Below are positions 4,812 through 22,909 of a stretch of 23,089 bases of DNA, in pieces. Both the position numbers and the translations under genes were made by a program. The notes beneath the pieces are model-generated. The model did not search any database, was not told the origin of the DNA, and saw only the letters and a list, made by a program, of their open reading frames with translations. Source of the DNA: a virus; IMG/VR virus record IMGVR_UViG_3300024255_000170, positions 1 to 23,089 of that record. One strand, given 5' to 3'. Position 1 is the stretch's first letter; each line of letters starts with the position of its first letter.

Positions 4812-4819
4812 TATTTATC
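4812..4819 (-). promoter_or_regulatory. Late promoter box GATAAATA for gp18
   Basis: Minus-strand GATAAATA lies in the 70-base gap between gp17 and gp18, 40 bases before the gp18 start. The gap is AT-rich and long for this compact region, consistent with a promoter for the sheath-tube unit that ends at the terminator at 1901-1928. Confidence 0.7.
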
Positions 4820-4841
4820 AAAATAAACATTTCAGAAAGAG

Positions 4842-6494
4842 TTACATATATTCCCACATATGACTATTGGTCCCATATTCATCTGTATACCAACGATCTC
4901 CTGTATTATCTACAAAAGAGGTTGAATCCGTGCCATCACTAACAAAACCAAAGGGTGCCATGTCCTGCTCTATCTGGTTTTCCTTCTCATTATAGATCTC
5001 TTTTCTAACATCATTATCCGTCATCTCACGGAAATAATCCTGAGCAACCACCCAAGCAAAGATGACTAGACACATTGCTAGGTCATCATTACATCCATCT
5101 TCAGCAGCGAATGTATTATTCCTGGAGATAAAGGTCGTCAACTCCTGGACAATATCGTAGTCGGTGAAGGTGAGTTTATTCTCCTCAATCAATGCTTTGA
5201 GGTTGGAGCAACCGAGTTTCTTGGTTGCTGTGCTCATCTTCACACCCAACTGTGTCTTAGTGCCAGAGAATCCTGAACCGAGTTGCTGCCCTGCTCGCCC
5301 TCTCATAGCGCACATTAGGACATTGGGATACTCCAGGTCATAGTTGAGGATAGAAGCGACCTGGTCGCCAATATCGTTGACCTCAATAAGAGTCCACGCC
5401 CTGTTATACATCTTACATACTCTCTGTATGATGCTTGGGAATACAATCGGTTTGATTTCATTATCCCGATACTTTGCTACTACAGTATAAGGAAACTTAG
5501 TAACATCAAAAACAACAAAGGCAGAGTAATCTTTCCCAACACCCCTAGCAACGTCAACAGTAATAACATAGTTGTGCTCTTCCTTTGGATCTACAAAAAT
5601 ATCTAGATGGTCATTTGACTTGATAGGAAGTTCATAATCCATTGCTCTCAGAGCAGTTGGTGAGATGAGAGTATCAACTGAACCAATAAACTCACATTCA
5701 AACTCAACCTTGAACTGGTCATATGAGGTGTTGGCAATCGTCTGTGCCTTCCAGGCATCATCACGACCCGGCACCTGAGACCAATGGACCTCGATGGGGT
5801 TATACTCGTTCTTACTCTTCTCAGCGTCGTGCCACATACGGTAGAAGTGATTCATACCGTGTGGCGTGGATACGATAATAACCTTGGTAGATTTACCAGA
5901 GGAGATCGTAGGATATACTGACGCGAAGAACTGGTCAGCAATATTATTTTGAACGAACGCAAATTCGTCCAGGAAGATGATGTTGAACGACATACCTCGG
6001 ACAGCAGATGCTGAGGTAGACGCTGCTAGAATCTTAGAACCATTCTCAAGTTCAACAGATCCTTTGTTCCAGGAGATGATACCGTGCTGCATCCAGGACG
6101 GTAAGTTCTCATAAGCAATCTGTAGACGACCAAGAATCTCCCTAGCAGTTGCTGCTTTGTTTGCTAGGATACCGATATTGACGTTGTCGTTAAAGATTAG
6201 ATAATGGAGTAGAAATGCAACACAGGTCGTAGACTTACCTGTCTGACGAGGCATCTTACAGATAGTAAATCTCTTCTCGTGAAAACTTCTGACGAGGTTT
6301 TCCTGGAAGTCATACATTGTAAAAGGTATGAGACCCTTATCCAAGGACACAATTTTAATGTGTTTCTTGGAAAAGTAAATAGGGTCTTCCTTACACTTAA
6401 TATATTCTTTGACTTGATCTAGAGTAAAATTAACGGCAACGTTTGCCTTCTTGAGATTAGGATTACCTAGATACTTGTTATCAACTGCTGGCAT
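4842..6494 (-). CDS. 17: Large terminase subunit gp17 (ATPase and nuclease)
   Basis: DNA-packaging motor that docks on the portal, translocates concatemeric DNA by ATP hydrolysis and cuts it at headful. All catalytic parts are visible in 550 residues. The N-terminal ATPase has Walker A PRQTGKST (about 82-89), Walker B IIFLDE (172-177) and the coupling motif STPHG (209-213). The C-terminal RNase H-like nuclease has Asp314 in ITVDVARG, Glu371 in LIEVND and Asp470/Asp471 in CNDDLAM. These match the D-E-D triad of T4 gp17. The gene is 19 bases downstream of the 403-residue gene and has no evident late box of its own, so it is likely co-transcribed with it. Unlike in T4, the small terminase gene is not adjacent. 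Confidence 0.98.
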   Translation of the reverse strand: MPAVDNKYLGNPNLKKANVAVNFTLDQVKEYIKCKEDPIYFSKKHIKIVSLDKGLIPFTMYDFQENLVRSFHEKRFTICKMPRQTGKSTTCVAFLLHYLIFNDNVNIGILANKAATAREILGRLQIAYENLPSWMQHGIISWNKGSVELENGSKILAASTSASAVRGMSFNIIFLDEFAFVQNNIADQFFASVYPTISSGKSTKVIIVSTPHGMNHFYRMWHDAEKSKNEYNPIEVHWSQVPGRDDAWKAQTIANTSYDQFKVEFECEFIGSVDTLISPTALRAMDYELPIKSNDHLDIFVDPKEEHNYVITVDVARGVGKDYSAFVVFDVTKFPYTVVAKYRDNEIKPIVFPSIIQRVCKMYNRAWTLIEVNDIGDQVASILNYDLEYPNVLMCAMRGRAGQQLGSGFSGTKTQLGVKMSTATKKLGCSNLKALIEENKLTFTDYDIVQELTTFISRNNTFAAEDGCNDDLAMCLVIFAWVVAQDYFREMTDNDVRKEIYNEKENQIEQDMAPFGFVSDGTDSTSFVDNTGDRWYTDEYGTNSHMWEYM

Positions 6495-6513
6495 AATAAA
6501 GTTAAAATGATGA

Positions 6514-7725
6514 TTATTCTACTATGGTGACATCCTGAGGAATAGTAGAACTACTACTCAACGTACTTCCTAAGGAGTCAATGATTACAGTTCTTCCTCT
6601 AATATCATAACCGACATCAGAAGACCTAGTAATATACTGAAGACCATCTGGAGCACCAAACTCGAAGAATCCTGACCCACCAGTCACTCTTCTGACCCAT
6701 TCATATCTATAAGTGAATGGGGGAACACCACCACTGAATACTGCTGCAGTTTGTGTTAGGACTGTGCCTGACTGACCAACTCCATCGAGAGTTCCCTTTG
6801 ATACCAATGCTAGTGGTTCTGCTATAACCTCAATGTGGTTTGGAATCGCAGCGATAGCTTTGTGATAATTGTATGCGTCAGTCCAGTAAGTTCTTCCTCT
6901 AATCTCATAACCAATATCACTATACTGAATAGTATAAGTCAATCCCTCTGGAGCACCAAATCTTACATACACATTCGTGGTGCCAGTTGGTTTTCTAAGC
7001 CATTCATATGGCTTAGTAAATGGACCGATACCACCGGTTATAGTGCCTTCTGTCATAGTAAGTACATCTCCTGGATATGCAGGGTCCGCTCCACTAAAAG
7101 TAAGAGTACCATTCACATCGACCTTCATCTCATCAACAACAACATCCGAAGCAGGAGTATTGACAGTGAGATATGATGGAGCGATTATGGCATCTTGAAT
7201 TCTAGTAGAAATACGAAGTCTAGCTCCCACCAAAGAAGAGTCTATTTCTTTTACTGCAGTATCAACTGCCGTCCAAGGACTAATACCAGTCCAAGCACCA
7301 CCAGGGGTTTCTTGTTTCTGTAACTGACCTTCAACAGTGATGGGTTCAGTACCACCCTGATAACCAGCAACCTGACCAGCCACATCTCTACCGACAGCAA
7401 ATCCGTTAGGTGCTGTGATATTACCAACACCTACAATTTCTAGTGGATTCAAACTACCTACTGGGTTATTGTTTTCGTCACGCCTGATGTATTGACCTGG
7501 GATGACTATATTATTATCTACGTCTCTCTTCACATACTCCTGAATGGAAGTTGCACCACCACCCACTAGAGTCTTTACATAATCACCATCAAAATCTTTC
7601 CAGGTAAAGTTAGTCCAACCGGCTGCATCCATACTCGCACTTCTAAATGCAGGTTGTGGTACAGCAACTACGTTGTCGTCATCGTATCTAACGTAGTTAT
7701 TATTTGTGTGTGTGAGTATCGACAT
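6514..7725 (-). CDS. Putative virion protein with tandem about 100-residue repeats
   Basis: Not a T4 core gene; function unknown. The 403-residue protein has a clear internal duplication. Residues about 204-299 and 306-401 align, sharing FGAP(E/D)GL.Y, then SD(I/V)GY(E/D)IRGRT, at an offset of 100 residues. A third, degenerate copy may lie at 122-190 (GGTEPIT... GARLRISTRIQD). The N-terminal third has a shorter repeated motif, Y(V/I)(R/K)xDxxNN (positions 11, 64 and 79). The composition (Gly, Thr, Val, many beta-prone residues) suggests Ig-like or other beta-sandwich domains, as in capsid or tail decoration proteins. It lies between the two terminase genes under its own late box, so late expression and a virion location are plausible inferences. 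No signal peptide or membrane segment was seen. Confidence 0.85.
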   Translation of the reverse strand: MSILTHTNNNYVRYDDDNVVAVPQPAFRSASMDAAGWTNFTWKDFDGDYVKTLVGGGATSIQEYVKRDVDNNIVIPGQYIRRDENNNPVGSLNPLEIVGVGNITAPNGFAVGRDVAGQVAGYQGGTEPITVEGQLQKQETPGGAWTGISPWTAVDTAVKEIDSSLVGARLRISTRIQDAIIAPSYLTVNTPASDVVVDEMKVDVNGTLTFSGADPAYPGDVLTMTEGTITGGIGPFTKPYEWLRKPTGTTNVYVRFGAPEGLTYTIQYSDIGYEIRGRTYWTDAYNYHKAIAAIPNHIEVIAEPLALVSKGTLDGVGQSGTVLTQTAAVFSGGVPPFTYRYEWVRRVTGGSGFFEFGAPDGLQYITRSSDVGYDIRGRTVIIDSLGSTLSSSSTIPQDVTIVE

Positions 7726-7748
7726 TTAACCAGAGTTTGTCGTCAATA

Positions 7749-7838
7749 CTATTTATTCTCGATAAATCCTACCTTTATTAGATTTGCTACAAATAGGATC
7801 GTACAAGTGTAAGCGAAAAATCCGGGGACTGTCATCAT
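7749..7838 (-). CDS. Candidate 29-residue membrane peptide
   Basis: A short ORF starting ATGATG at 7838 and ending TAG at 7749-7751. It encodes MMTVPGFFAYTCTILFVANL followed by IKVGFIENK. Residues about 5-25 form one hydrophobic stretch suited to a single membrane span, with a charged Lys/Glu C-terminal end. A late-promoter-like box (AGTAAATA) ends 19 bases upstream. The stop codon lies inside the AATAAATA box of the next gene, an overlap also seen for other genes here. No good Shine-Dalgarno is present. An overlapping ORF in another frame (7753-7848, 31 residues, hydrophilic) competes but looks less protein-like. It matches no family I recognise; a lysis or envelope role would be speculation. 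Confidence 0.5.
   Translation of the reverse strand: MMTVPGFFAYTCTILFVANLIKVGFIENK
7750..7757 (-). promoter_or_regulatory. Late promoter box AATAAATA for the repeat protein
   Basis: Minus-strand AATAAATA lies 24 bases before the start of the 403-residue gene and overlaps the last codons and stop of the 29-residue ORF. Confidence 0.65.
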
Positions 7839-7845
7839 GCTGATG
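7833..7845 (-). repeat. Hairpin over the start of the 29-residue ORF
   Basis: Bases 7833-7837 (CATCA) and 7841-7845 (TGATG) are complementary around a 3-base loop. The two candidate ATG codons (7836-7838 and 7833-7835) lie in one arm and the loop, so folding would cover the start. A GGG/CCC pair outside (7825-7827 with 7852-7854) could extend it imperfectly. Confidence 0.4.
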
Positions 7846-7857
7846 CATCTACCCGAC

Positions 7858-7865
7858 TATTTACT
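7858..7865 (-). promoter_or_regulatory. Late promoter-like box AGTAAATA
   Basis: Minus-strand AGTAAATA keeps the TAAATA core and lies 19 bases before the start of the 29-residue ORF. It is the most divergent member of the NNTAAATA set because positions 1-2 differ from the T4 form, so support rests on spacing. Confidence 0.4.
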
Positions 7866-7881
7866 ATGTTTTATATTTTTT

Positions 7882-8013
7882 TTACCTTTGTTGTGGGTGA
7901 ATAAACATAATACCCAGTACTGGGACTGTGACCAATAGGTAACAAAGCAGTCCCATAAACCAAAGGTGCTCTAAAGCGTGAGTCAAAGCGTACTTAACAA
8001 CTAACAAGTCCAT
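7882..8013 (-). CDS. Candidate 43-residue single-span membrane protein
   Basis: An ATG at 8013 opens 43 codons ending TAA at 7882-7884. The peptide begins MDLLVVKYALTHALEHLWFM and ends IMFIHPQQR. Residues about 18-38 (FMGLLCYLLVTVPVLGIMF core) form a strong membrane-spanning stretch. The N-terminal part could be an amphipathic helix with two histidines and a glutamate. It is preceded, 25 bases upstream, by TATAAATA, a perfect T4 late box, which directly follows the 250-residue gene. An in-frame stop six codons upstream of the ATG excludes a longer N terminus from a nearer start. There is no clear Shine-Dalgarno. No family was recognised; small size, one span and late timing would suit a holin-like, envelope or minor virion peptide, but that is inference. 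Confidence 0.65.
   Translation of the reverse strand: MDLLVVKYALTHALEHLWFMGLLCYLLVTVPVLGIMFIHPQQR
7913..7955. repeat. Palindrome and inverted repeat inside the 43-residue ORF
   Basis: Bases 7913-7924 are a perfect 12-base palindrome (CCCAGTACTGGG). Overlapping it, TGGGACTG at 7921-7928 pairs perfectly with CAGTCCCA at 7948-7955 across a 19-base spacer. Both could fold in the minus-strand transcript and they are mutually exclusive. Both lie in coding sequence, so chance is possible. Confidence 0.6.
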
Positions 8014-8038
8014 TTCAGGCAAATGTTATAAGATGAAT

Positions 8039-8046
8039 TATTTATA
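8039..8046 (-). promoter_or_regulatory. Late promoter box TATAAATA (perfect T4 consensus)
   Basis: Minus-strand TATAAATA lies 25 bases before the 43-residue ORF and immediately after the stop codon of the 250-residue gene. It is one of two exact matches to the T4 late -10 element in this window and strongly suggests that what follows is expressed. Confidence 0.8.
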
Positions 8047-8048
8047 TT

Positions 8049-8801
8049 TTAGCACTTCCATTTTCGTAATGCTAGTGCCTTACGTGTTGGTTTGCCCTTA
8101 TCATCTTTCATAGGTCCTTTCATTCCACCCATTCTAGCGCAGAATGACTTTTTTCTAGGACCACCTTCAGGTTGAGGTGCTTTGAGGTCGGAGCCGGGGT
8201 TCTCTCGTTCATAGGACTTGCGTCCCTTCTCGTTAAGACCCCCGGCTTTATTCTTTCCCTCTTTACGCTGCCATGCTGACTCATTAAACTCAGCGAAGGT
8301 CTTCTTACCTTCTTTGACACAGTTAGGGACATCTTTACCGTCCTTCTTCTTGGTGCCCTTTGCTTTGTAACCATCCCAACACTTGTCAGCGCCGACATTC
8401 TTACGTGCTTGCTTCATACCTTCGCCAATGTCAAGGGTGTCAGGATAATCCTTGTCTCCTTTCTTAGCAGGTTTCTCACCGCGCTTACGCTTGGCGTGGA
8501 TGTTATCCCACAAACCCTTTTTTTTACCTTCTCCAAGGTTGGACTGCTCTTCCATTTTTTTACCATCTTTTTGTGGTTTGATACTGGGGGCATGAACGCC
8601 CATATGCTTATCATATTTGACTGATGTCTTTAGGTCCTCTTTTTCCTTTTTATCTTTGATAGAGGGAGCACCAGTCATATCTGCCTCAGCATAGTAGTTA
8701 GTAACTTCAAATGCTGGGTTTCCATTAGCGTCATCCAAAATGAAAGACTCTTTGGAAGTTTTGGACTTCATTTTAGACCAAAAAGGTTGGATGTTTTCCA
8801 T
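8049..8801 (-). CDS. Lysine-rich mosaic protein with a DUF6321-like C terminus
   Basis: A very basic, hydrophilic 250-residue protein of unknown function. It reads as a string of short modules. Residues 97-120 contain LWDNIHAKRKRGEKPAKKGD. Residues 139-163 contain DKCWDGYKAKG followed by NCVKE, with paired cysteines. The C-terminal 178-250 contains RKEGKNKAGGLNEKGRKSY, then KSFCARMGGMKGPMKD, ending ALALRKWKC. From memory these modules recur separately in many marine phage proteins, and the last resembles the family I know as DUF6321; I could not check this. The strong positive charge suggests nucleic-acid or capsid-interior binding. It sits in the insert between gp16 and gp17, after the 139-residue gene. 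Only a weak box (TAAAAATA) precedes it. Confidence 0.85.
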   Translation of the reverse strand: MENIQPFWSKMKSKTSKESFILDDANGNPAFEVTNYYAEADMTGAPSIKDKKEKEDLKTSVKYDKHMGVHAPSIKPQKDGKKMEEQSNLGEGKKKGLWDNIHAKRKRGEKPAKKGDKDYPDTLDIGEGMKQARKNVGADKCWDGYKAKGTKKKDGKDVPNCVKEGKKTFAEFNESAWQRKEGKNKAGGLNEKGRKSYERENPGSDLKAPQPEGGPRKKSFCARMGGMKGPMKDDKGKPTRKALALRKWKC

Positions 8802-8842
8802 TTTACAAATTTAATAAGAACACGCTTTAGCGCAATTGATAC

Positions 8843-8850
8843 TATTTTTA
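8843..8850 (-). promoter_or_regulatory. Possible weak late box TAAAAATA
   Basis: Minus-strand TAAAAATA differs by one base from TATAAATA, in the 51-base gap before the 250-residue gene, 41 bases upstream of its start. It lacks the TAAATA core seen elsewhere, so it is doubtful. Confidence 0.3.
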
Positions 8851-8852
8851 AA

Positions 8853-9272
8853 TTAATCGTAAGTTTTCTTGCCACTTTTTAGATATCCAGACCCTTTAGA
8901 GTCATAGAATCTAATTCCTTTTGCTTGCCTTTCAGAGGCAAGTTGCCCTTTGCGTTCTTTATCTTTAGCACGAGACTTTGCTTCTCCTGCTTGTGCTTTA
9001 AAGTCGCTGAGTTTCTTCTCTCTCTTTTCCTTACTGAAACCATCAAGGTCTTTATTTGATGGTGCCTTAAGTGCCTCGGACATTCCGCCGTCCATACCAG
9101 AGTTTCCACCCTGATCATTGTCGTCGTCATCTCCAATAATTGTGTCGAGACCATAAGATCCCTTCTTTATCTTTTTATAATCACAGGTACAATCCTTCTC
9201 GGATTCTCCACAATTATCACATTGCTTAGATTTCTTTTCACCCTTTTCAGGATTACTCTTTGACTTAGCCAT
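8853..9272 (-). CDS. Small charged protein with an N-terminal cysteine cluster
   Basis: Unknown function. The 139-residue hydrophilic protein has lysine-rich ends and an N-terminal cysteine set CDNCGESEKDCTC (Cys18, 21, 28 and 30), spaced like a small zinc-binding knuckle. An acidic patch (GDDDDND, about 47-53) and a Gly/Met linker follow, then a long charged helix (about 80-118). The C-terminal motif is GIRFYDSKGSGYLKSGKKTY. The gene starts six bases after the gp16 stop and has a GATAAATA box 20 bases upstream, inside the end of gp16. It could bind DNA or terminase given its charge and place, but this is inference from composition and context only. Confidence 0.85.
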   Translation of the reverse strand: MAKSKSNPEKGEKKSKQCDNCGESEKDCTCDYKKIKKGSYGLDTIIGDDDDNDQGGNSGMDGGMSEALKAPSNKDLDGFSKEKREKKLSDFKAQAGEAKSRAKDKERKGQLASERQAKGIRFYDSKGSGYLKSGKKTYD

Positions 9273-9278
9273 GGTAGT

Positions 9279-9713
9279 TTAATCTGATAGACTATTTATC
9301 ATTCCTTCTTTGATCATCTTCTGAAGGTCAGTAGTTGATCCGACAAAGACGGAATTGTTAGTAACATTGGTTTGGTTGTTGGTGATGTTCACCTGCTCCA
9401 AGTCCTTTGCTTTCTTCTGTAAGTCTAGCAACTTATCGGTCACATCGGCAATATTCTTAATTAATGCTCCAGCAACTTCATAAGATCTAGCACTATCACT
9501 CTCTTGAGCAAGTTCCAGGGCGCCATTTACTGCTTCCTGTCCCTTTTCAATCAAACTGTATAAGTTTGCTCGAGTGTAATCATAATCTTTTCTTGCATCT
9601 TGTGAATCAATTTCAGTAGCAGTATTCTCCTTGCGGACAACAGGTGCTTTTTCTGGTTTCACAATAGTGGATTCACAATCCAATGCTTCATCGATCGATT
9701 CAAAATTACTCAT
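9279..9713 (-). CDS. 16: Small terminase subunit gp16
   Basis: Recognises packaging DNA and stimulates the gp17 ATPase. The 144-residue length is close to T4 gp16 (164). The central part is predicted helical: DYDYTRANLYSLIEKGQEAV (about 44-63), then ARSYEVAGALIKNIADVTDK and LLDLQKKAKDLE (75-106), the helical-hairpin and coiled-coil oligomerisation core of the T4-type small terminase. A polar NNQTNVTNN linker and a short C-terminal helix (TDLQKMIKEGMIN) follow. It starts two bases after the gp15 stop and lacks a separate late box, so it is likely co-transcribed with gp15. Its last codons carry the late box of the next gene. Order and motifs support the call well. Confidence 0.93.
   Translation of the reverse strand: MSNFESIDEALDCESTIVKPEKAPVVRKENTATEIDSQDARKDYDYTRANLYSLIEKGQEAVNGALELAQESDSARSYEVAGALIKNIADVTDKLLDLQKKAKDLEQVNITNNQTNVTNNSVFVGSTTDLQKMIKEGMINSLSD
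9293..9300 (-). promoter_or_regulatory. Late promoter box GATAAATA inside the gp16 3' end
   Basis: Minus-strand GATAAATA (part of the codons for Met-Ile-Asn-Ser of gp16) lies 20 bases before the 139-residue gene. It marks the start of the inserted gene block as its own late unit. Confidence 0.65.
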
Positions 9714-9715
9714 GT

Positions 9716-10516
9716 TTAAGGATTGTAATCAGCATCTTGTGTGGGACTATACTTTTTGGAATCGAAGAAGAGAACTGTATCCTCATTGAAACCAAAGTCA
9801 TCACCCGGTTCAGCATCAACTGGGTCGGGAGTAACAGTATATCTGACTTCCCTTGGCGCTGTCGGTTTAGTATCGGTATGGTAATCAACCTGTACCTTGC
9901 GGATGAGACCATCTCCAGTATCGCTGATAGGACCAAATAGATAGGTCTTAGCAGTAAAACTGAGTGTATAGATGATAGTCCTGCGTGCTGTGAAGTCTCC
10001 TTCATAATCATCAGTAAAGTTAATACCATCTAAAACGATGGGGATGTCTCTCTTCTCACCAATAGAGTCCACCAAATCAACAGTGATGTTGAATGATGGT
10101 TGGAAGTAAGGGAGAATCTGCTCTACGATTTGTAGGGCATCCTCATTGAGTTTAGTCATTATATTCAACTCAAAACCCAGATTATAAGGGACAGGCAGAT
10201 AAACCCTTTTGAGTTTAGTGCCGTCTTCTAGAGTTTTGAATGTCTGTGTAGGTTGAGTTTTCCTAGTGCCGTCATAGGCAATAGAGTTCATCTCAAACGA
10301 CATTCTAGGAAGAGTGATCTCAGTGGGTTGATTTAACTCACTTTGCTGAGTAATCCTAGCAAGAAATTTCTGCATAGGACCATACGCCAAAGGGATCTTC
10401 ATGTCGTTAATGACACTTGCCTTTGGATCTGTCTTCTGAATATGAACGTTATTGAATAAGTTTCCAAAACCAACAACGGTTCGTTTGATTATTTCATGAT
10501 AGAAATAGTCAACCAC
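9716..10516 (-). CDS. 15: Tail terminator / sheath stabiliser gp15
   Basis: Forms the hexameric ring capping tube and sheath and joining the tail to the neck. The 266 residues match T4 gp15 (272). The N terminus MVDYFYHEIIKRTVVGFGNL followed by FNNVHIQK parallels the T4 opening (YFYNSSFRRY...LFSNIQI). The middle KIPLAYGPMQKFLARI and ITLPRMSFEMNSIAYD also fit the family. It is preceded by a 28-base gap after gp14 that holds an ACTAAATA late box 25 bases from the ATG, and it ends two bases before gp16. The C-terminal end is acidic (DPVDAEPGDDFGFNEDT). Confidence 0.95.
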   Translation of the reverse strand: MVDYFYHEIIKRTVVGFGNLFNNVHIQKTDPKASVINDMKIPLAYGPMQKFLARITQQSELNQPTEITLPRMSFEMNSIAYDGTRKTQPTQTFKTLEDGTKLKRVYLPVPYNLGFELNIMTKLNEDALQIVEQILPYFQPSFNITVDLVDSIGEKRDIPIVLDGINFTDDYEGDFTARRTIIYTLSFTAKTYLFGPISDTGDGLIRKVQVDYHTDTKPTAPREVRYTVTPDPVDAEPGDDFGFNEDTVLFFDSKKYSPTQDADYNP

Positions 10517-10541
10517 AGGAATATACCGTAATATACTATTT

Positions 10542-10549
10542 TATTTAGT
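10542..10549 (-). promoter_or_regulatory. Late promoter box ACTAAATA for gp15
   Basis: Minus-strand ACTAAATA overlaps the gp14 stop codon and lies 25 bases before the gp15 start. It is identical to the box ahead of the gene after gp20. Confidence 0.55.
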
Positions 10550-12020
10550 CGCCAAATGGATTCGATGAATCGAAGTTGTAGGAATTATCGTTGAAACTTC
10601 CAAACTGATTGAATTCTGTCTCATCAACGATATCGTTTGCAACATCTTGGATGTCATCAGATTCGGAGTATTTATCTGACGGAGTTCTAGTGTTCCATCT
10701 CTTGATAGAGTATCGTGCCCTGCTGGTCTTACCGACAAGAACTTCCTCTCTAGAGAAGTCAACATCCTCTTTCTCTGGGTCTAGATTAGTAATCTGAAGG
10801 ACTTTACTAACACCATCCCAACCACGGACTCGTGCCTGGGTGCCTGATGTCTTACCTTCAACAATTTCATTGTATATAAAGTCACCATCACCAGCGTCTG
10901 GAGGGGCATCTACGATGACTGTAGCGCCCTCAAACAGGTCCTTACCTGGGTTGGTAACAACTGCCTGGACGATCTTTGTGCCGTTCGTTAGAGCAACACC
11001 TTCAGCGATAATATTATTATCATTATCATAGACACTAATCATAGCGTCTTCAGCATAACCTGTGCCTTGCTCCTCAACATCAAACTCAATAATACCTTTA
11101 GATAGTGGGTCGGTGTTGATACCTGCTCTAACTAGAGCACCACTACCTTGCCTATCAGGGGGAACGATGTTAATTGTAGGTGCCTCAGTATAACCACTGC
11201 CACTACGGAATACCACCAAGTCCTTCACAGATGATGTGCTGTTATTGACTGTTGCCTGATTCATTATCAAGGCAATCTGTGGGTCAGTACCAACCTGTGG
11301 AGGTTCAATAACAATATCAGGTGTTGCTGTATAACCTTTACCCTCATTCAAGATGAGTAGTTTTTCAATATAACCAGTGCCTAGTTTGTAGGATACCTCT
11401 GCTCTATTGCTTAGAGCGATCAACTCAAGTGATGTGATGTATCCTTTATTGGATAGTGTGGAGTCGATCTCATCGATAGAAGTATCGAATACCTCATCTT
11501 CATACTCGAATAACTCACACTCTAACTCATAGGTGTAACCTTTACCAAGTTGATAGAATGGTTTCTCGTGCTCTACAAACTTGATTTCAAATAATCTTCT
11601 GCCGAGTGGGAAGTAAATTAAGTCTCCCTCTTTCGGTCTATGAATTGTTGGTAATTCATTTGTATTGGTTGCTGTATTCATCAGATACAACATTCTAGAA
11701 TTCAAGAATGGAGCGATATAACTCTCATACCTCTCTCTGGAGATAGTAAGAGTTACATCGTCCTTGACCTGAATACCAAACTTGGACATAATATCACCTT
11801 GACCACCATAACCGTCAAAGTTATTGAGGTATGCTTCGATGATAAAATATGACCTAAACTGAGAGGATGTTACCTCTCTCATAATAGTTGCTTCCTTTAC
11901 AAACTCTCTAGGAATGTAAAAGACATCAATACCATACATGCGGAGTTGCTCGTTAACGAGATCCTGCATCAGGTTTTGTTCTTGTGTTGATCCGTGAAGG
12001 AAGAAAGGATTAACAACCAT
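10545..12020 (-). CDS. 14: Neck protein gp14 with an inserted GxGY repeat region
   Basis: Part of the neck ring (with gp13) that closes the filled head and receives the tail. The N-terminal 180 residues match T4 gp14: QLRMYGIDVFYIPREFV (27-41), AYLNNFDGYGG (63-73), KFGIQVKDDVTLTI (80-93), PKEGDLIYFPLGRRLFEI (129-146) and PFYQLGKGYTYE (154-165). T4 gp14 is 256 residues, but this protein has 491. The extra part (about 217-375) is a run of repeats with GKGY, GSGY and GTGY followed by proline and valine/isoleucine strands, a pattern also found in gp8 and the giant protein of this phage. The C terminus ends in NPFGD, reminiscent of the T4 gp14 end. The ATG follows the gp13 stop immediately (TAAATG), suggesting translational coupling. 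Confidence 0.94.
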   Translation of the reverse strand: MVVNPFFLHGSTQEQNLMQDLVNEQLRMYGIDVFYIPREFVKEATIMREVTSSQFRSYFIIEAYLNNFDGYGGQGDIMSKFGIQVKDDVTLTISRERYESYIAPFLNSRMLYLMNTATNTNELPTIHRPKEGDLIYFPLGRRLFEIKFVEHEKPFYQLGKGYTYELECELFEYEDEVFDTSIDEIDSTLSNKGYITSLELIALSNRAEVSYKLGTGYIEKLLILNEGKGYTATPDIVIEPPQVGTDPQIALIMNQATVNNSTSSVKDLVVFRSGSGYTEAPTINIVPPDRQGSGALVRAGINTDPLSKGIIEFDVEEQGTGYAEDAMISVYDNDNNIIAEGVALTNGTKIVQAVVTNPGKDLFEGATVIVDAPPDAGDGDFIYNEIVEGKTSGTQARVRGWDGVSKVLQITNLDPEKEDVDFSREEVLVGKTSRARYSIKRWNTRTPSDKYSESDDIQDVANDIVDETEFNQFGSFNDNSYNFDSSNPFGD

Positions 12021-12893
12021 TTAACCCACCATATCAAGAGGAGGAAGTTCGTAGGTGCTAGACATATCTTGTTTGATGATGTCCAATTCTTTTACACCTT
12101 CATCGTAGATTTCTCTACCATTCATCTCAATACCGCCTGGAAGTTTTGTTCCACGGAATTTGATGAGGTTCTGTCCCCACTGTTTCTTGAGGGCAGCGGT
12201 CAAATACTTTTTGACCCAACTATCATTATAGATTTTAACAAAGTCCTCGGGATCAAGTGCTCTATAGCAATCGATAAGGATTACTTCACCACCTGACAGG
12301 GCACTCCAGTTGAAATCAATATACAATCTGTCCATTCTCTTATTGAAACGAATCATCGTCTCTGGATTGAACATGAAGTCATATGTTTCAAACCACTGCT
12401 TCGCTAGGTAGTAGTCAAGCATACCACCACCATAGAAACCGCTCATACCTCCCATCCCACCATATGGTGAGACACCAGGACCTAGAATACCTAGACCAGG
12501 GAATGCTCCAAATCCACCACCACCATTTGCTGCTCTAGGTGCCATCACTCTCTCAACACCAATCACCCAATCAGGGATAGGGATATAGTTGGAGTTCTCA
12601 ATGAATGTAGCAGTCGTAGGAGTCTTGTCACCGGGGTAGGTGAGAGATGCTGTCGAAATTCCTGGATTAGTGAATGGGTTATAGTCACTACCACGAGCAA
12701 TGTCGTGCTCTGTAATCTCATACTTGAGATATGTCCTGACTACACCATCATAGTGTCTCTCTTGGAAATGCTGGATAGTGTCATCCAACACATCATCAAT
12801 CTGCTCATCAGCAATGTTGATTTCCAACACTGGAGCACCAAGTTGACGCAAGGCGTAGTTTACTAATTCTTGTCTAGTGCTTGGTTTTGCCAT
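12021..12893 (-). CDS. 13: Neck protein gp13 with a Gly-rich insertion
   Basis: Head-completion neck protein that works with gp14 after DNA packaging. The 290 residues compare with 309 in T4. Conserved features are the N-terminal TRQELVNYALRQLGAPVLEI, DDVLDDTIQHFQERHYDGVV (33-52) and a C-terminal part containing WVKKYLTAALKKQWGQNLIK and LPGGIEMNGREIYDEG. A Gly/Met/Tyr-rich loop occupies about 122-158 (GGGGFGAFPGLG ... GGMGGMSGFYGGG). The start overlaps the stop of the upstream 85-residue ORF by one base (TGATG), so the two are probably translationally coupled. No separate late box was seen. Confidence 0.95.
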   Translation of the reverse strand: MAKPSTRQELVNYALRQLGAPVLEINIADEQIDDVLDDTIQHFQERHYDGVVRTYLKYEITEHDIARGSDYNPFTNPGISTASLTYPGDKTPTTATFIENSNYIPIPDWVIGVERVMAPRAANGGGGFGAFPGLGILGPGVSPYGGMGGMSGFYGGGMLDYYLAKQWFETYDFMFNPETMIRFNKRMDRLYIDFNWSALSGGEVILIDCYRALDPEDFVKIYNDSWVKKYLTAALKKQWGQNLIKFRGTKLPGGIEMNGREIYDEGVKELDIIKQDMSSTYELPPLDMVG

Positions 12894-13150
12894 CAGAAGA
12901 AACCCGCATCAATTGTATCAGTCCAAGCAGTTCTGCTTGTATCTGGGTTTACTGTAAGGACAATAGTAGACTTACTGATCTGAGAACCCTCAACAATAGG
13001 GGTAAACTGATCTCCATTCCAGATAGGAACTTCACCAGTGCCAATACCAATATTATCTACATCATTCAAGTTACCGAATGATGCTGGTAGTCCGTTTGAA
13101 ATAACTCGGACTACATTGCGTTGTCCGATTTGGTCGAGTAAATTTGCCAT
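12893..13150 (-). CDS. Small putative fibre/neck-associated protein (85 aa)
   Basis: Unknown function. The 85-residue protein contains LNDVDNIGIG, then GEVPIWNGDQFTPI (28-52). This is a compact version of a 'DVD ... WNG ... W/F-P' motif that I associate with linker segments of cyanophage tail-fibre-type proteins. It ends with DAGFF, an aromatic C terminus. It overlaps by one base both the preceding 176-residue gene and gp13, so the trio looks like one translation-coupled unit. Its place matches that of the T4 whisker gene wac, just before gene 13, which makes a collar or minor virion role plausible but unproven. Confidence 0.8.
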   Translation of the reverse strand: MANLLDQIGQRNVVRVISNGLPASFGNLNDVDNIGIGTGEVPIWNGDQFTPIVEGSQISKSTIVLTVNPDTSRTAWTDTIDAGFF

Positions 13151-13680
13151 CAGGACCTCTCCGTATCTTCGCTAGTTGGTGTTGCTTGGACCCACTGAGA
13201 ACTATCTTGGTCAGTATAGTAGATATACATACGACCATCAGAAGAGTTCCACCAGAGGTCTCCTGGGACTGGATCGGCAGGTGGTTTTGTGCCAATTGCT
13301 ACAGGTGGTTGACTTGGTTTGATTACACCAGATTGCATGTCTGTTACTCCTGGGTTTACTAATGCCATTCCCTCAACAACACGATAAACTTTATTATCTT
13401 GTTTGCTAATCAGAATTACATCATAGACATATCTACCTTCTTTGAGGGCAGTTGTCTGCTCTGAATTTAGACTAATGGTGATTTCACCACTAGTGGGTTT
13501 GAGTACTTTGACATCAAACTCCACACCAAAAGGGGCACTAGGATGTTTCCTAAGTTGACCTACACCACGAAATTGTGTGAGGTTAATAGGAACACTAGTG
13601 CCCGCATCATCTAACTTGAAATTAGCAGAGAAATCAGCACCCTGGTCAATAGTTATATTAGAAACGTAGGCGCTTGCCAT
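13150..13680 (-). CDS. Putative virion protein with a BppU-like N-terminal domain
   Basis: The 176-residue protein probably has two parts. Residues 8-110 (ITIDQGADFSANFKLD, then GEITISLNSEQTTALKEGRY, YDVILIS) read as an all-beta domain of the type found at the N terminus of baseplate and receptor-binding proteins. I recall BppU-like folds with this opening. Residues 126-167 hold a Pro-rich linker and GDLWWNSSDGRMYIYY then SQWVQA, a motif common in cyanophage tail and fibre proteins. A late box (GATAAATA) lies 26 bases upstream. It overlaps the next ORF by one base. A structural role near the tail or collar fits, but the exact place is unknown. Confidence 0.82.
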   Translation of the reverse strand: MASAYVSNITIDQGADFSANFKLDDAGTSVPINLTQFRGVGQLRKHPSAPFGVEFDVKVLKPTSGEITISLNSEQTTALKEGRYVYDVILISKQDNKVYRVVEGMALVNPGVTDMQSGVIKPSQPPVAIGTKPPADPVPGDLWWNSSDGRMYIYYTDQDSSQWVQATPTSEDTERS

Positions 13681-13701
13681 ATCTCAAGTTATAGGATACT
13701 A

Positions 13702-13926
13702 TTATCTATTTATCATTTGTTGGATTAGTTCTTTTAATTCCTCAATCTGCTTCTTAGACTCATCTAGATCATTCTTCAATGTCTCTAGTTCATTTTTAGA
13801 TCTCGATTCCTTGAGAAACTTCTTTTTGTAGTTTCGGTATCCTTGCACATCCATATTAACGATGGCACCCGACTTATTATCACGGTAGAGGTTGTCGTGT
13901 CCCTCTACCTTTGCGTATCCCTTCAT
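13702..13926 (-). CDS. Small coiled-coil protein (74 aa)
   Basis: Unknown function. The N terminus (GYAKVEGHDNLYRDNKSGAI then VNMDVQGYRNYKK) looks like a short globular head seen in many T4-like marine phages. Residues about 40-72 (ELETLKNDLDESKKQIEELK, then ELIQQM) form an obvious heptad coiled coil. The start overlaps the stop of the giant 2459-residue gene by one base (TAATG), so it is translationally coupled to it. It could be an assembly chaperone for the giant protein, like the small chaperones paired with T4 fibre genes, but that is inference. Its last codons contain the late box of the next gene. Confidence 0.82.
   Translation of the reverse strand: MKGYAKVEGHDNLYRDNKSGAIVNMDVQGYRNYKKKFLKESRSKNELETLKNDLDESKKQIEELKELIQQMINR
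13707..13714 (-). promoter_or_regulatory. Late promoter box GATAAATA in the 3' end of the coiled-coil gene
   Basis: Minus-strand GATAAATA overlaps the codons for Met-Ile-Asn-Arg, the last four of the 74-residue gene. It lies 26 bases before the 176-residue gene. It probably drives the 176-85-gp13-gp14 unit. Confidence 0.65.
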
Positions 13927-16900
13927 TATGCTAATGCGATTGCTCTTACATCTCTGTAGAACGGTGCTCTCGCCTCGTTAGTACCAGACATTACGATCTT
14001 GAGTTGGAAACCCTGGAACTCAGGTAGATTCTTCTGCTCGTATTCGTATTCTAAGAATTCGTTAACAGCACTTGCCTTGACAAACTTGTTAGGAAGACCG
14101 TTGTTCTTAGATAGGTCGATTACGGTATCACCGAAACCATCACCATCAACATCTAGCATATTGGTGTAACCAGGGAAGAGTTCCCAAGATGGATCTGTTC
14201 CGCCTTGTGTCGATGGACCGAATAGACGGTATAGGACACGGAAGTCACAGGAAGCATCACGATATGCTGTGATGAATACCTTCAATGAAGTAGAAGGATT
14301 CTTGATATCGATTCTGGTTGAGATATAGATGGATGAGTGTGGGTCACCATTCGTTCTATTTACTCTAGCGTCATCAGCAAAGTTTTTGACCGGAGCATTA
14401 ACAGCATTTCTCACAAAGACCATATTGGTTTGTGAAACATCAATTACTGGACTGAGGTTTTGGTCCGTGCTCTTGAGTGAAGCAGCATAAGTGAATGATG
14501 CCTGTGCTGGAATGTCTTCTAGGAATGTAACTTCATTGATTCGGTTGGCGATGAGACGAGGTGTTTCGAATCTAGTGTATCCATCGACTGTTGCTGGGGT
14601 ATAACCCTGGTCGATATAGGATATCTCATTACCGTTACAACTTGTTCCACTAATCGTTCTAATAGTACCAGTGATACTGGTTGTTTCATTCGGTGTGAAT
14701 GTTCCCATTGATGGGAGGATACGATTAAACTGGAAGTTTTGAGCGATATAAGCATTAGAACCACCAACTTCTCCCTGTTGATTGAAGCAGAGCATACCTG
14801 GACCAGACTGCCTATCTGAGCGGTCAATCTTGATAGGTAATGTATTGAATGTTCTAGTGTCTCCTAAAGTTGAGTTGATAGGTGTCTCTAGAAGAGTATT
14901 GATTCTTCTGAGGGATACACCACTAACTTCATACTTATAAACTCTAGTGCCTGGGTCGTGGATTAGAACAGCACTATTATCAACACCACGGGATGTGATG
15001 CCTAATGTGCCATCACCATTGTTTGTGTATTCGATAATCTCACCACCCAAGTAAGCATAACCAAACGATGTGGTAATACCTTCAAAGGTTGCGAATGGTG
15101 CAGTATTATCAACGATCAACTGAGTATCGGTGATATTCAACTGCCCACTGAGGGAAGTTGCAGGTTGGTCACCTAAGCAGTTGACGATAGACAAGAACTG
15201 ATTATCAGCGTGTAGAGCGTGTGCAGGACAGTCAACAACAAAGACATCACCAGCATACATTGGGTCAATAACTGTCGAACCAAGGGCATCAACATCAACA
15301 CCAGTGTAGATTAGTTGACCATTCTCGGCGATTTTCTTGATGCTATCAGTAGCAACATATCTTTCACCAAGAACATTGGTTAGATATAGCGTATCTGTAT
15401 CACCAATACTTTCGATAGTGATAATAGCGTCTCCACCAGCATCAGCAACATCGGATGTCTTAATACCAACAGTGTCTCCGACTTTATATCCAACACCGCC
15501 ACTAACAACAGTAGCACTGTCGATTACGCCGTCTGTTACATTAATGTTGAGTGTAGCATTCTCACCGAGAGAACCAGATCTACCTAAGACGCCAGCAACA
15601 GATAGTGAGTATGCCTCAACAGCAGTGTAACTACCATCAATGAAACCGGAACCACCATCAGTGATATCAACAGTTGTCATTGGTCCGCCGAGAGCATCGA
15701 TGTCTGCTGGGACCTTAGAAACATTGGTGAAACCAGAACCAACAGAGGTAATAGCATCACCAGGTTGGAAGTTGTAACTGTTTGGTTGGACACGGACCTT
15801 GATTTTTCTTGGTAGAGTCAAGATGCCGTTGTTACGGATACGAGTTGAGTTGCTGAGTGGTGGGTTTGTAAGGAATACAGTTCCCTCTTCAGTAGTAAAC
15901 AACGCCTTATAGAGAGTAAATTTGAGGTCTTCAAACTGACTCGGTGTCCAGATGCTACCATTCTGTGACTTGAATAGCGAACCATTTAGATACTGCTGTG
16001 AGATAATAACCTGACCAGTACCAGTGGCAGCATCTCCATCAGTCTCGGTATCAGTATTGTCTACAGCGGTATCAGTCTCAACTGCTGCCTGGTCGTCCTG
16101 TAAGGAACCAGAGACGCCGTCAGCGACACCTGATGCTTGACCAGGAGCAACATTGCCTTCACCCATACGGGCAATCCAAGCAGTGTAGTCGTCAGTAGTT
16201 GGTGCTAATAGAACTAGTGCATATGTAATGCCTGGTTCTAGGTAAATTGGTGATGGGAAGAATACTGTTGTTGGAACAGTAGCATCACTAGAGACATTGA
16301 CATCATCAGGACCTAATACAACACGAGCATATGACTGAACAAGTTGTGTTGTGGGAGTTCCCAATTCAGTTGTGCGAATCTCAACTGCTAAGTTATCTGT
16401 CTCCGACTTTGCTGCCATATAGATGTCAACTGAAGTCAAGAATGCTCCAGTCTCATCTACACGGAAGGTTTGTGCCAAAGGATCATCATATCTATCCTCA
16501 TCTCTTTCCTGTCGTCTTTGACGCCTCACTCGTCTTTCGACTCTAGTGATATTGTTGACGATGGTTCTTGTTCTGTCAATAAATCTTCTTTCGACGAAGT
16601 TGTTTTCAACAGTAACCGTTCTATCAATAACTTGTGTTTGTGTCCTATCAATAACTGTTTGGAAGTTATTTGTGACTGTGTTATCAATAATGATTGGTGG
16701 TGGGGGTGGTGGTAAATCCTGGACACCAATAGTTTCAGTCCTTCTGTTCTGGACAGTACCTGATGATTCGAATGTAGCATCAGTGAAGGAAACATTGGTG
16801 CTTCCCAATACTGGTTTAGCATTAGCAGCACTTGACGATAAACGGAAAGTTCTGATTCCAGTTCTTAGTCTGAATGCTGGTGCTGGAGTTGTGTAGGGGT

Positions 16901-19900
16901 CTCTGAAGTAGATAGCACCCTGCAATTCAGCAAAGGTATCTGATACTAACTTAAGGTCAGTAACATCTGCTACAGCACGACTAGAGGCACCCTCAATTCT
17001 CATTCCTGTAGCAAGTAGACCATAGTATCTTTCATCACTCATATCAGCAAGTGAGAAGATGTCAATGTTTAGAATGGTAGAGGATCCTGAGTATGCTCCA
17101 GGAATAATCTCACCTCTTCTGTATGGGTTTTGTGTATACTTTCTTCTTGGAGCACTGAAAGGACCAGTCTTATGATTCTGTGCGGCAACACGAGCAGCAA
17201 AGACTTGTGTGCTTCCGTTGAAACCACGGACAGTCTCACCAACGATGAAGGCACCAGACCTCATATTGATTTCAATTAGTTTGGGGATAATATCCGCCCC
17301 TGCCTGACCATCCCAGAAAGGATAGAAACGAGTGTGTGGACGAAGACCATCAGCAGAGAAAGCAACGTTTCTCTCACGCATAAACTGAGCAACCTCAACA
17401 CTCTCAACGAAAGTCTTAGAGAAGTCACCAGTTGTCGTGCCGTATACATTGATACGCTGACTACCGAGTTGTCTTGTAACAACAAAGTCATCGCTTCTAG
17501 GAGCGATAGACATCGAACCATTATAGAGAATAACATTGAATGGGTTTACATTCTCAATTCTCGATGCTAGTGGTTGTGAAATCCACTTCCTCTCACTATA
17601 GTCGAGTGTTACTAGGTCACCAGTCTTGGTCGTATTAGGATCTACTAGAGGTAGGTCACCATCTAGAGCGATTGTCTGGGAGTCAATTCCATCCTTTAGT
17701 AGTAGACGGATTGGAATAGTTCCAAATTCCTGAAGACAAGCAAGTGTTCCGAATGAGGTAATGACATCTGCCTTGTAGTCTGGGTTATTGATGTCTACAA
17801 AGTTTAGTGATGTAAAGTCATCGGCAAAGAAACCAGTCTTGAATCTGATATTACCATCAGCATCAGTAATATTTACAGACTCTGCCTGTCTCTCTAGTAG
17901 TGAGAGTGAAGTAATCTCTTCTAGATTCTCAATACGAGTTTCTAGTCTTCCAATATCCTTCATCGTATAACGCTTGTTATCGATTTGAATAACTTTGATG
18001 TCATTCATATCGAAGACATATGGTGGATACTCGATACGAGCGAGTTCCATTGCTGTCTCAGCAGAGTCTGGATATGATGGGTCTCTGTTTGGAGCACCCA
18101 TAACAACTTGGAATTTACCTTCTTTGGTTGCAATAACTCTATCCTTTCTTCCAAGATAGAAGTCATATCCAAGAGACATACTCTCATTAGGAGCAACTAC
18201 CTGTAGTGGAGTGTTGCCTACACTACCGAAATCTCTCTGAGTGTAGTTGAATGGTGAGTCTGCCGTTGTAGCAAGGTCAAATGGTTTGACACGAGGACGG
18301 AAATCAAGTGTATCAGAAGCACGAATATCTTTCTGGGGACCTAAGTTAGGCATCCAGTACTCAAATGATGGATTGTCGTATGAGTTTACTGTGTAGAAGT
18401 CACCCTTATCATCAGCAGGGACAGTGAAGGCATCATAGATGATTCTTAGTCTCTTGTTAGGTGCTACACCGTTATCAGATCTCACAATCCTAGCATAATC
18501 GTAGAACTGCTCTCTGTATCCATTATCGAGTGTGTATCTATCTGTAATGTCTAAGTAGTTTCCATCCACCATCCCCTGTAGGATGTTCTGGACACCAGAT
18601 TCTTGGAAGATTACTAGTTCGCCAACTTCAAATTTGTCTTGACTGAGATATACAATTCTCACATTCTCTTGGTCTGGAACAGTGATGACCTGTGCAACAG
18701 CACCACTTACCTCACCTCTTACATACTCACCTCTAACTAGGTTGGCATCTAAGGCAAGACCAGCAACAAACTGCATCACATCTAGAGTTGGATTGCCTGA
18801 ATCCAGTGACTCATAGACAGCAACAATATTTCTTACATCAGGAATGTTGAGTGAAACTTCCTGGTCATCAACACGAAGACCATAGTATGGACTTGGTTGT
18901 AGTTGATATTTGTCGGTACCAATGCCAGTAGAAATTCTATCTACGATTAGTTCTTCTGAGCGAGAAACAATCTTAGTCTTGGAACGAATACCACTCTTAA
19001 TAGCAGTAACATTTGCAACTACATTAGTTTGACTTGGTGGTAGGTTGTGGATACTAACGGTATTACTAGTGAATGATACGGCAGTAGAATCAATTTTTAC
19101 ATTGGTGCCGTCAGATAGAGTAATACTGTATCTTCCTGGTCTATAGGCAGCAAAGTCAGAGTTATTGACATTCAAAGCACTGCTGTTTGCGGTCAATGTA
19201 CCACCAGCATCAATACTGAGACCAGTAATTTGCTTGGTGAATATCAACTCAGAGGAAGATAGGTCTAGTTTTGCTGTTGTTCTCTCTTCAAGAGTAGCAT
19301 ATAAGAATGACTTATCTTGGTTGAATGTCTGAGAGATCATAAGTCTCATAACGACATCAATAGTTTCTGCAGGCAATGTGCCGTCAACTGATCCTACAAC
19401 ATCATCAACTGCCTCAATGGTCATAGAGAGATCATCAGCAGAGATAGCACTAACTCTATTGAAGGTGATTAGTGATTCGCCAGACTTCTGGTAAGCAACA
19501 ATATCACCGACCTTGAAACTATTAAATGTGCGTCCACCACAAGCGACTACACCACTAGCAGTAATAGTGAAGGTATCGTCTGGTAAGAAGTTTTCTGCGA
19601 CTCTAGGATAGAGAAGTGTTTCTGAAGCGAAATTGACCTGTAGTCCGCCATCAATAGAAGGGGCATTCTGACCTATAGATCTTACATTATCGGTCTTGTA
19701 GGCGTCTACAGAGGCAATGGTGAGGGTATTAGATGTGGTGCCGTTGATTGATAGTGTTTCTCCTCTCTGGAATTCACCATCAACTTGAGTTAGAGTTACA
19801 TCGTTCCCATTGAGAGTTCTAACGTAACCAATTGAGTTGCTGCTGAGACCCTTGACTTTGTATCCGGCAAGTAACAGACTTGAGGGATCAGAGTTTACAG

Positions 19901-21305: not shown

Positions 21306-21308
21306 CGT

Positions 21309-22865
21309 TTAGAATTCCAAGATGATTTTAACGTCTTCTTTTTGGCGGGGATTCCTTGGCACAATTGGTCTATTGTCCAAGTATAGAATTTCACCGCTCT
21401 GTTTATTTATCTCACTTGCGGCAATGCCATTTGTGAACTCAACACCGAGTTCGACTGACTTATCAGCAACAGTTTCAGATGAACCATTGAAGGTTGTATC
21501 AACTGTAGCAAGGAAACCATCGTCAGTAATGATGTTGTTGTTATTAGAAACGAATGGGATTTTCTCACCCCTAGTACTAATACCAACATAGTCAACACTA
21601 CCGTCAACGATTTGGACTTTACTCTGGTTTAGATAGAGTGACCTATCCTGGATATACTTGAGGACTTTGGTTTCTTCATCGAATGAAACAGCATACCCTC
21701 TAGCAATACCATCATCAGTTTGCTGACTAATGACTTGACCAACCTCAATGTCACCACTGAAGGATAGGACTTTGATTGAATCAGCAGCAGTAAATGTATT
21801 CTCAGTGAATGTCTGTAGAGACCCATTGATTTGTGGGTTTCTAATAATACCAATTTGTGAGAACTTGGTGTCTGTTGGGAAGTCACTATTTGAATCATCA
21901 AAGCGTGAATACACCAGAATCTTATCTGTACCTAGTTCTTCGTATAGGTCATAACCGTGTCCTCTAGATGGAGGAATAATGACCTCTAGTTCTGCTGCTT
22001 GAGTGATATTGGCGTTGATAGGACCGAGGTCAACTAGACCCCAACTGTATCCCTTACCACCTTTTGATACGATTGCTTTGGTAATCTTACCAGAAACAAC
22101 GTCGATGATAGCACGAGCACCTGTCCCATCACCAATGATAGGGAATTCTTGACCTGTGCCACCAGCATAACCAGCACCCTGGTTAGCAATATAAATTTGT
22201 TTAATCTGAGAGTCATTGATCTCTGAGTCGCCACTCTCACGGATAGCGGTGACTTGTGGTGTATCAGATGTTTCCCAATCACTGGGAACTGTGATGTAGT
22301 CAGTTGAGTCAAACTTCAGAACATCGGCAGGAGATACTGTAAAGAGATACTTCCAAACATATCCATCACCACTACTACCTGCTGCGCTTGGTTCAGTATC
22401 TACAAAGGTGGGTTCGTCTTCAGAACCATTACCTTTAGTATTAGCACCACTAGAACCGTTGCTCAAACAGATATACACTCTGAAGTCGCTGTTTACAACG
22501 TAGTAGTTTGCATCATAGAGGCGAGTTGAACCAGTATTTGGTGATACATTGAATACGCTATAGTCATCACGATATTGCTCATACCTAGTTCCCTGGACCC
22601 AATCGATACGACGAATCACTCGGCGAATGTTGCCGGGAGTGATACGACGACCATACATCATAGTATCGTATGTATGTCGGACATAAGCAAAACTATCGAT
22701 TGGTGATGGGGGATCATCATTCCAATCGAGTGTTCTACCATACCCATCTCCAACGGGGTTCGGGAGACCTACAAAGATGTAATATGAGTTATTTGGATCT
22801 GTTACAGAGGTGACGAAGTTGTCGGCGTTAAACAGCCTAAACTCGTCGGTAATAAGTGCGGACAT
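21309..22865 (-). CDS. 8: Baseplate wedge protein gp8
   Basis: Wedge component of the baseplate. Recognised by the cyanophage gp8 N terminus MSALITDEFRLFNADNFVTS, the YVRHTYDTMMYGRRI region (61-75), DDYSVFNVSPNTGSTRLYDA (100-119), the DFRVYICLSNG segment (127-137) and DGYVWKYLFTVSPADVLKF (167-185). It ends with EDVKIILEF. The 518 residues exceed T4 gp8 (334). The extra length includes two GxGY motifs (NQGAGYAGG at 228-236, KGGKGYSWG at 268-276) like those in gp14 and the giant protein. The start at 22865 is the first ATG after an exact TATAAATA late box 36 bases upstream. It ends three bases before the giant gene. No Shine-Dalgarno is evident. Confidence 0.93.
   Translation of the reverse strand: MSALITDEFRLFNADNFVTSVTDPNNSYYIFVGLPNPVGDGYGRTLDWNDDPPSPIDSFAYVRHTYDTMMYGRRITPGNIRRVIRRIDWVQGTRYEQYRDDYSVFNVSPNTGSTRLYDANYYVVNSDFRVYICLSNGSSGANTKGNGSEDEPTFVDTEPSAAGSSGDGYVWKYLFTVSPADVLKFDSTDYITVPSDWETSDTPQVTAIRESGDSEINDSQIKQIYIANQGAGYAGGTGQEFPIIGDGTGARAIIDVVSGKITKAIVSKGGKGYSWGLVDLGPINANITQAAELEVIIPPSRGHGYDLYEELGTDKILVYSRFDDSNSDFPTDTKFSQIGIIRNPQINGSLQTFTENTFTAADSIKVLSFSGDIEVGQVISQQTDDGIARGYAVSFDEETKVLKYIQDRSLYLNQSKVQIVDGSVDYVGISTRGEKIPFVSNNNNIITDDGFLATVDTTFNGSSETVADKSVELGVEFTNGIAASEINKQSGEILYLDNRPIVPRNPRQKEDVKIILEF
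21404..21411 (-). promoter_or_regulatory. Possible internal late box GATAAATA in the gp8 3' end
   Basis: Minus-strand GATAAATA occurs within the gp8 codons for Glu-Ile-Asn-Lys, 98 bases before the giant gene. The octamer matches the other boxes but the leader would be longer than elsewhere, so it may be chance. Confidence 0.35.
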
Positions 22866-22901
22866 CGTATAAAATCAGAGTGCGATAAAATACCGTAACA
22901 A

Positions 22902-22909
22902 TATTTATA
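22902..22909 (-). promoter_or_regulatory. Late promoter box TATAAATA for gp8 (perfect consensus)
   Basis: Minus-strand TATAAATA overlaps the stop codon of the upstream gene and lies 36 bases before gp8. It is an exact T4-type late element at the head of a baseplate gene. Confidence 0.8.

Follow-up and report, generated by a model that had tools for sequence, protein, structure and literature searches.

A tail-less member of the PHROG 1184 / T4-GC 922 membrane protein family between gp16 and gp17 of a viral genome fragment

Results

An unannotated membrane mini-gene upstream of gp17

The DNA analysed here (hereafter the window) comprises 23,089 nucleotides of the virus record IMGVR_UViG_3300024255_000170, and the locus of interest lies on its minus strand between the genes for the two terminase subunits. 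The features of this interval are as follows.

4842..6494, minus strand: gp17, terminase large subunit, which fixes the synteny
6514..7725, minus strand: downstream neighbour, a 403-aa conserved cyanophage protein, phrog_3552 (unknown function; PHROG match)
7749..7838, minus strand: unannotated membrane mini-ORF of 29 aa, MMTVPGFFAYTCTILFVANLIKVGFIENK (position conservation, pN/pS)
7750..7757, minus strand: AATAAATA, a late-promoter-like motif that overlaps the end of the 29-aa ORF and lies 25 nt before the 403-aa gene (motif search)
7882..8013, minus strand: tail-less PHROG 1184 / T4-GC 922 member of 43 aa, with a 4-residue C-terminus after the span (homology, PHROG match, AlphaFold2, purifying selection)
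8038..8061, minus strand: putative site homologous to the ACG-2014f / S-CAM7 start codon (AAATGGAACTGCTGA, which lies within the terminal part of the gene before it; sequence comparison)
8039..8046, minus strand: TATAAATA, a T4-type late promoter motif confined to the window and its near twin L020, apart from a single near-consensus case in L079 (motif search, upstream comparison)
8049..8801, minus strand: upstream neighbour, a 250-aa protein with a C-terminal DUF6321 domain (domain search)
9279..9713, minus strand: gp16, terminase small subunit, the other border of the variable gp16-gp17 interval

An earlier note, made from the letters of the window, had drawn attention to a 43-residue unannotated ORF at 7882-8013. 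The ORF is indeed present and runs on the minus strand, which the note had not stated, with its ATG at 8013 and its stop ending at 7882; it encodes MDLLVVKYALTHALEHLWFMGLLCYLLVTVPVLGIMFIHPQQR. The single membrane span proposed for it is borne out both by hydropathy, with a best 19-residue Kyte-Doolittle mean of 2.38 at residues 20-38, and by AlphaFold2, which predicts a helix at residues 2-14, a break and a second helix at residues 17-38 (mean pLDDT 83.4; alignment of window and virome rows only). A Kyte-Doolittle value of 2.2 is reached by only 4 of the 139 window ORFs of 30-60 aa. The histidine-bearing N-terminal helix of the earlier note stands as a predicted helix, but its histidines are not conserved in the family, and the hydrophobic moment of this helix in the window protein is no better than that of shuffles and gives no sign of amphipathicity. 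Translation of the protein and its location in the membrane are predicted. The ATG at 8013 is not preceded by any evident Shine-Dalgarno-like sequence. A structured RNA in place of a protein was considered and rejected (no Rfam match; fold z-score -1.4).

The ORF belongs to PHROG 1184 / T4-GC 922

The tBLASTn search suggested in the earlier note returned homologues in two named phage species, with 56-62% identity in ACG-2014f isolates and 66% in S-CAM7 (E 9e-7 to 5e-5). The note had recognised no family; the window protein nevertheless matches the PHROG 1184 profile with an E of 1.7e-5 (residues 10-39 to profile positions 9-38 of 54), and with an E of 6e-7 in a one-genome search. A loose family search at E<=1 matches 6 of 14 control genomes, so that weak hits at that level are meaningless. 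Members of PHROG 1184 are annotated in GenBank as T4-GC 922, function unknown, in Syn33, S-SM1 and S-SM2.

The earlier note had held that a spurious frame would betray itself by stops or frameshifts in its homologues or by the lack of an excess of synonymous change. None of the 107 distinct C-termini collected carries an inactivating stop, and codon comparison of the conserved core across 36 disjoint pairs of family members gives a pN/pS of 0.12. Within the window's own clade, pN/pS is 0.14, with about 9 of 198 nonsynonymous and 21 of 66 synonymous sites changed (four disjoint pairs; Fisher p 3e-8). Because tblastn homologues, the PHROG 1184 match and purifying selection coincide, the ORF is real beyond chance, and we regard it as almost certainly a genuine gene of the PHROG 1184 / T4-GC 922 family.

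Scans of IMG/VR recovered one twin at 98% identity and further relatives at 56-73%. The long (tailed) form, which was scanned separately from the short form as a mixed alignment was too diverse, is encoded by at least 592 virome stretches. The collected sequences share the core GxLxxLLVxVPxxGxxxxH; in the short-form alignment G21, L27, P31 and G34 never vary and H39 hardly does, which places the conserved residues, with their P31xxG34xxxxH39 core, in the span and at its end. The tail HKYxWEHWEPF is found in 78 of 106 distinct members and is absent in 28, the window's included. Among S-RIM8 isolates, some have the tailed and others the tail-less form at this locus, indicating that the tailed and tail-less forms are alternatives of one gene, and together with the 28 members that lack it this is why the tail was not treated as family-defining. 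The tail-less form has apparently never been annotated: in the regions of ACG-2014f and S-CAM7 inspected, the ORF itself is without annotation, and the label "hypothetical protein" attached to some of the hits stems from the adjacent gene, which overlaps by 4 bases. In S-PM2 (L012, LN828717.1:110577-110693), a divergent, unannotated tail-less member lies inside a tRNA array, away from gp17.

In one scan of genome contigs, no cellular relatives of the family were found apart from an evidently mis-binned phage contig. An origin as a host-derived small subunit was accordingly rejected, as this single match in the cellular collection, a Rhodopirellula MAG contig (L034, NZVD01000078.1), is evidently cyanophage DNA; its gene order is zwf, family member, GC647, nuclease, gp17, gp18. 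No photosynthetic subunit matched the 43-aa protein in Pfam, NCBIfam or PDB sequences. A Foldseek search of the PDB gave no match and is uninformative at so small a size, and the best PDB profile hits (an odorant receptor construct and neuraminidases, with E of 0.4 and above) were dismissed as chance.

A conserved position in a hyperplastic region

Family members sit in the gp16-gp17 interval on the same strand as gp17, as does the window's ORF. The region g15-g18 has been described as a hyperplastic region of cyanomyoviruses that is thought to serve host adaptation (PMC2984593), and gp16-gp17 is one of four listed hot spots for Synechococcus-enriched genes, those seen only in phages isolated on Synechococcus, with zwf and gnd among them (Sullivan et al., PMC3037559). 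Common neighbours of the long form are zwf, gnd, petE, the small membrane protein T4-GC 647 and an SNase-type nuclease; the neighbours annotated or mapped across the family encode terminase, metabolic enzymes and nucleases, and no lysis gene was noted among them. In the near twin L020, a gene of 203 aa (2324-2935) separates the 139-aa and DUF6321 genes, where the window has only a short gap at 8801-8853; this difference reflects a gene gained or lost recently within the hyperplastic region.

Directly downstream of the 43-aa ORF lies the 29-aa membrane mini-ORF (7838..7749). In S-CAM7 and in the majority of the clade's contigs, counterparts of 25-31 codons stand at the corresponding position, and a pN/pS of 0.28 over four pairs (p 9e-6) points to purifying selection. 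The window's 29-aa ORF has no PHROG match and no tblastn match in the phage collection, and ACG-2014f is without it. In most of the clade the site would thus hold a pair of membrane microproteins, resembling in arrangement the GC922 and GC647 pair of long-form phages. In S-RIM2, S-RIM8, S-RIM32 and one virome contig (L010, L017, L018, L032), a further very small, conserved hydrophobic ORF (about MEVQLGILIFMCMFGVFLFVVSLF) lies just upstream of the family member.

A probable late promoter private to the window's lineage

The exact motif that the earlier note placed 25 bases before the ORF was confirmed: TATAAATA lies at 8046..8039 on the minus strand, and the ATG follows after a gap of exactly 25 bases (8038..8014). 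The window holds two exact copies of TATAAATA where 0.9 are expected, a count that is reached by 20 of 100 shuffles and is not significant alone. A degenerate cyanophage late-promoter motif, NATAAATA, has been described for S-PM2 (PMC2984593). It occurs in the window (4812-22909) eight times on the coding strand and not at all on the other, and five of the eight copies precede the starts of other genes by 21-41 nt (binomial p 6e-6), namely gp18, the genes for the 403-aa, 139-aa and 176-aa proteins and the baseplate wedge gene. Two copies fall inside genes, at 21411 and 10676. Given this strand bias and placement, the motif is very probably a working late promoter in the window's phage, and it is plausible that the 43-aa ORF stands under a T4-type late promoter of its own.

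This arrangement is peculiar to few members. Among the 111 distinct family members with enough upstream sequence, a near-consensus late motif (ATAAATA) lies within 150 nt upstream in only three (the window, L020 and L079), which is no more than background. The ACG-2014f and S-CAM7 genes begin at a start codon that overlaps the end of the gene before, or comes shortly after it (AAATGGAACTGCTGA and variants). The homologous ATG in the window encodes only MEVLKYK before a stop; 48 nt further on, past the promoter, the gene begins anew in the same frame. The window's start region differs from that of every relative but L020. In the window's lineage, a separate promoter appears to have taken the place of coupled translation. 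The earlier note had read late timing as a clue to function; with so few members under such a motif, and with the starts of close relatives overlapping or abutting the preceding stop, this clue does not hold for the family.

Association with Synechococcus phages, petE and zwf

Across the 16 cyanophage genomes of Sullivan et al., a set whose membership is in part presumed, the family is found in 9 of 10 phages isolated on Synechococcus and in none of the six isolated on Prochlorococcus (p 0.0009, ignoring phylogeny). The exception is S-SSM7, isolated on Synechococcus WH8109, which is without the family gene and which has been singled out as having just two Synechococcus-enriched genes (PMC3037559). 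The family gene is also absent from the freshwater phage S-CRM01. Matches with an E of 0.03 in P-SSM4, P-HM1 and P-HM2 were discarded as chance, being 14-residue stretches inside long frames.

Among 28 whole phage records, petE is present in all 15 tailed genomes and in 4 of the 13 others (p 1e-4), and zwf in 8 of 15 and 0 of 13, respectively, both comparisons ignoring phylogeny. No petE, zwf or gnd was seen in the window, which is only a 23-kb fragment. We treat the host and petE associations as a lead, not as proof.

Discussion

Our analysis places a 43-codon gene of the window in PHROG 1184, a known but uncharacterised family, and adds to it a tail-less branch that annotation has apparently missed. 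The family is encoded by hundreds of cyanophage sequences, is under strong purifying selection, is confined to phages in the collections searched and tracks the divide between Synechococcus and Prochlorococcus. It also indicates that conserved membrane microproteins, and not just the well-known metabolic genes, occupy the gp16-gp17 hot spot. Its small size and fixed locus make the gene an easy knockout target.

The reading that we tentatively favour is that the 43-aa protein is a host-adaptation factor in the Synechococcus membrane, rather than a universal lysis or virion part. This reading derives from the tracking of Synechococcus and Prochlorococcus hosts, the location in the hyperplastic region and the co-occurrence with petE and zwf. 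In the window's phage, the protein would be expressed late from the ORF's own T4-type promoter, would insert into the host membrane as one helix ending in the conserved histidine, and would aid Synechococcus infection by acting on a host membrane complex, which it would bind and modulate, or on the state of the membrane. In the tailed form, the HKYxWEHWEPF extension, which the window's form lacks, may act together with phage plastocyanin and the sugar-dehydrogenase (zwf/gnd) genes. Against this reading, the argument is one of guilt by association, as every gene of the hyperplastic interval shares the same neighbourhood. The absence of the gene from S-SSM7 and S-CRM01, the lack of petE, zwf and gnd in the window fragment and the want of any sequence or fold match to a photosynthetic subunit also speak against it.

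The earlier note favoured a holin-like or other lysis peptide, made late, accumulating in the cytoplasmic membrane and permeabilising it, for which the 29-aa ORF could be a partner. One membrane span, the late promoter in the window and the tandem of two small membrane ORFs would suit such a role, and no cyanomyovirus holin is named in the literature covered, including PMC2984593. However, the 43-aa protein matches no lysis PHROG or other lysis family, the late motif lies within 150 nt in just 3 of 111 relatives, and no lysis gene was noted next to the family, whose annotated and mapped neighbours encode terminase, metabolic enzymes and nucleases. In addition, the gene is missing from all six Prochlorococcus phages and from S-SSM7, which lyse without it, as well as from S-CRM01; its absence from the six indicates that it is dispensable for lysis by such viruses. 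We consider a lysis role distinctly unlikely and a weaker reading than host adaptation. Superinfection exclusion, or a defence against DNA entry by competing phages by analogy with T4 Imm and Sp, would be in keeping with a small membrane protein in a variable region, but we consider it unlikely, as the protein has no Pfam match and no PADLOC model match and a late promoter would be poor timing for excluding secondary phages.

A minor virion component, such as a membrane-associated ejection or tail peptide, is suggested by the location among structural genes and the late promoter in the window's phage. Single-span hydrophobic peptides are unusual in tailed virions, the neighbouring hyperplastic genes include metabolic enzymes and most members are without a nearby late promoter, all of which make a virion role very unlikely. 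That the ORF is not a gene, and merely a chance hydrophobic frame in an intergenic gap, might be argued from its shortness, the want of a clear Shine-Dalgarno sequence and the aberrant start region shared with L020 alone; it is contradicted by the comparative data (a conserved frame, kept synteny and purifying selection) and is scarcely credible.

Returning to host adaptation, a more specific version can be put forward as a long shot. PHROG 1184 might be a phage-born thylakoid microprotein that acts alongside the phage's plastocyanin: its helix would dock on a Synechococcus electron-transport complex, and the tail, rich in W and H, would either handle plastocyanin or divert electrons. In phages that lack petE at the locus, tail-less forms such as the window's would retain the docking helix alone.

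Several known systems bear comparison with the window's gene. Phage holins and one-span lysis peptides are likewise small membrane proteins, and the late promoter in the window's phage recalls them, whereas the family is not found in all cyanomyoviruses, has no lysis-family match and is not linked to a lysis gene. The single-span photosynthetic small subunits (Psb, Pet and Psa, including PsbX-type, PetG/L/M/N and PsaI/J/M proteins) and phage HLIPs have the same size and one span, and the co-occurrence of the tailed form with phage plastocyanin adds to the likeness, although the family has no sequence or fold match to them; a photosynthetic subunit is a conceivable but unsupported reading. Typical members of PHROG 1184 / T4-GC 922 (for example Syn33_113, SSM1_123 and SSM2_242) share with the window's protein the PxxGxxxxH span core, the small size, the strand and the position upstream of gp17; the window's form differs in ending 4 residues past the conserved histidine, without the HKYxWEHWEPF tail, and in having a late promoter of its own and, at the N-terminus, a private extension of 7 residues. 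Unlike the window's gene, the ORF of ACG-2014f and S-CAM7 is without a late promoter of its own, and ACG-2014f also does without the 29-aa ORF. These phages nonetheless hold the closest named relatives, which are 56-66% identical over the matched part, tail-less, and set between the DUF6321-containing gene and gp17.
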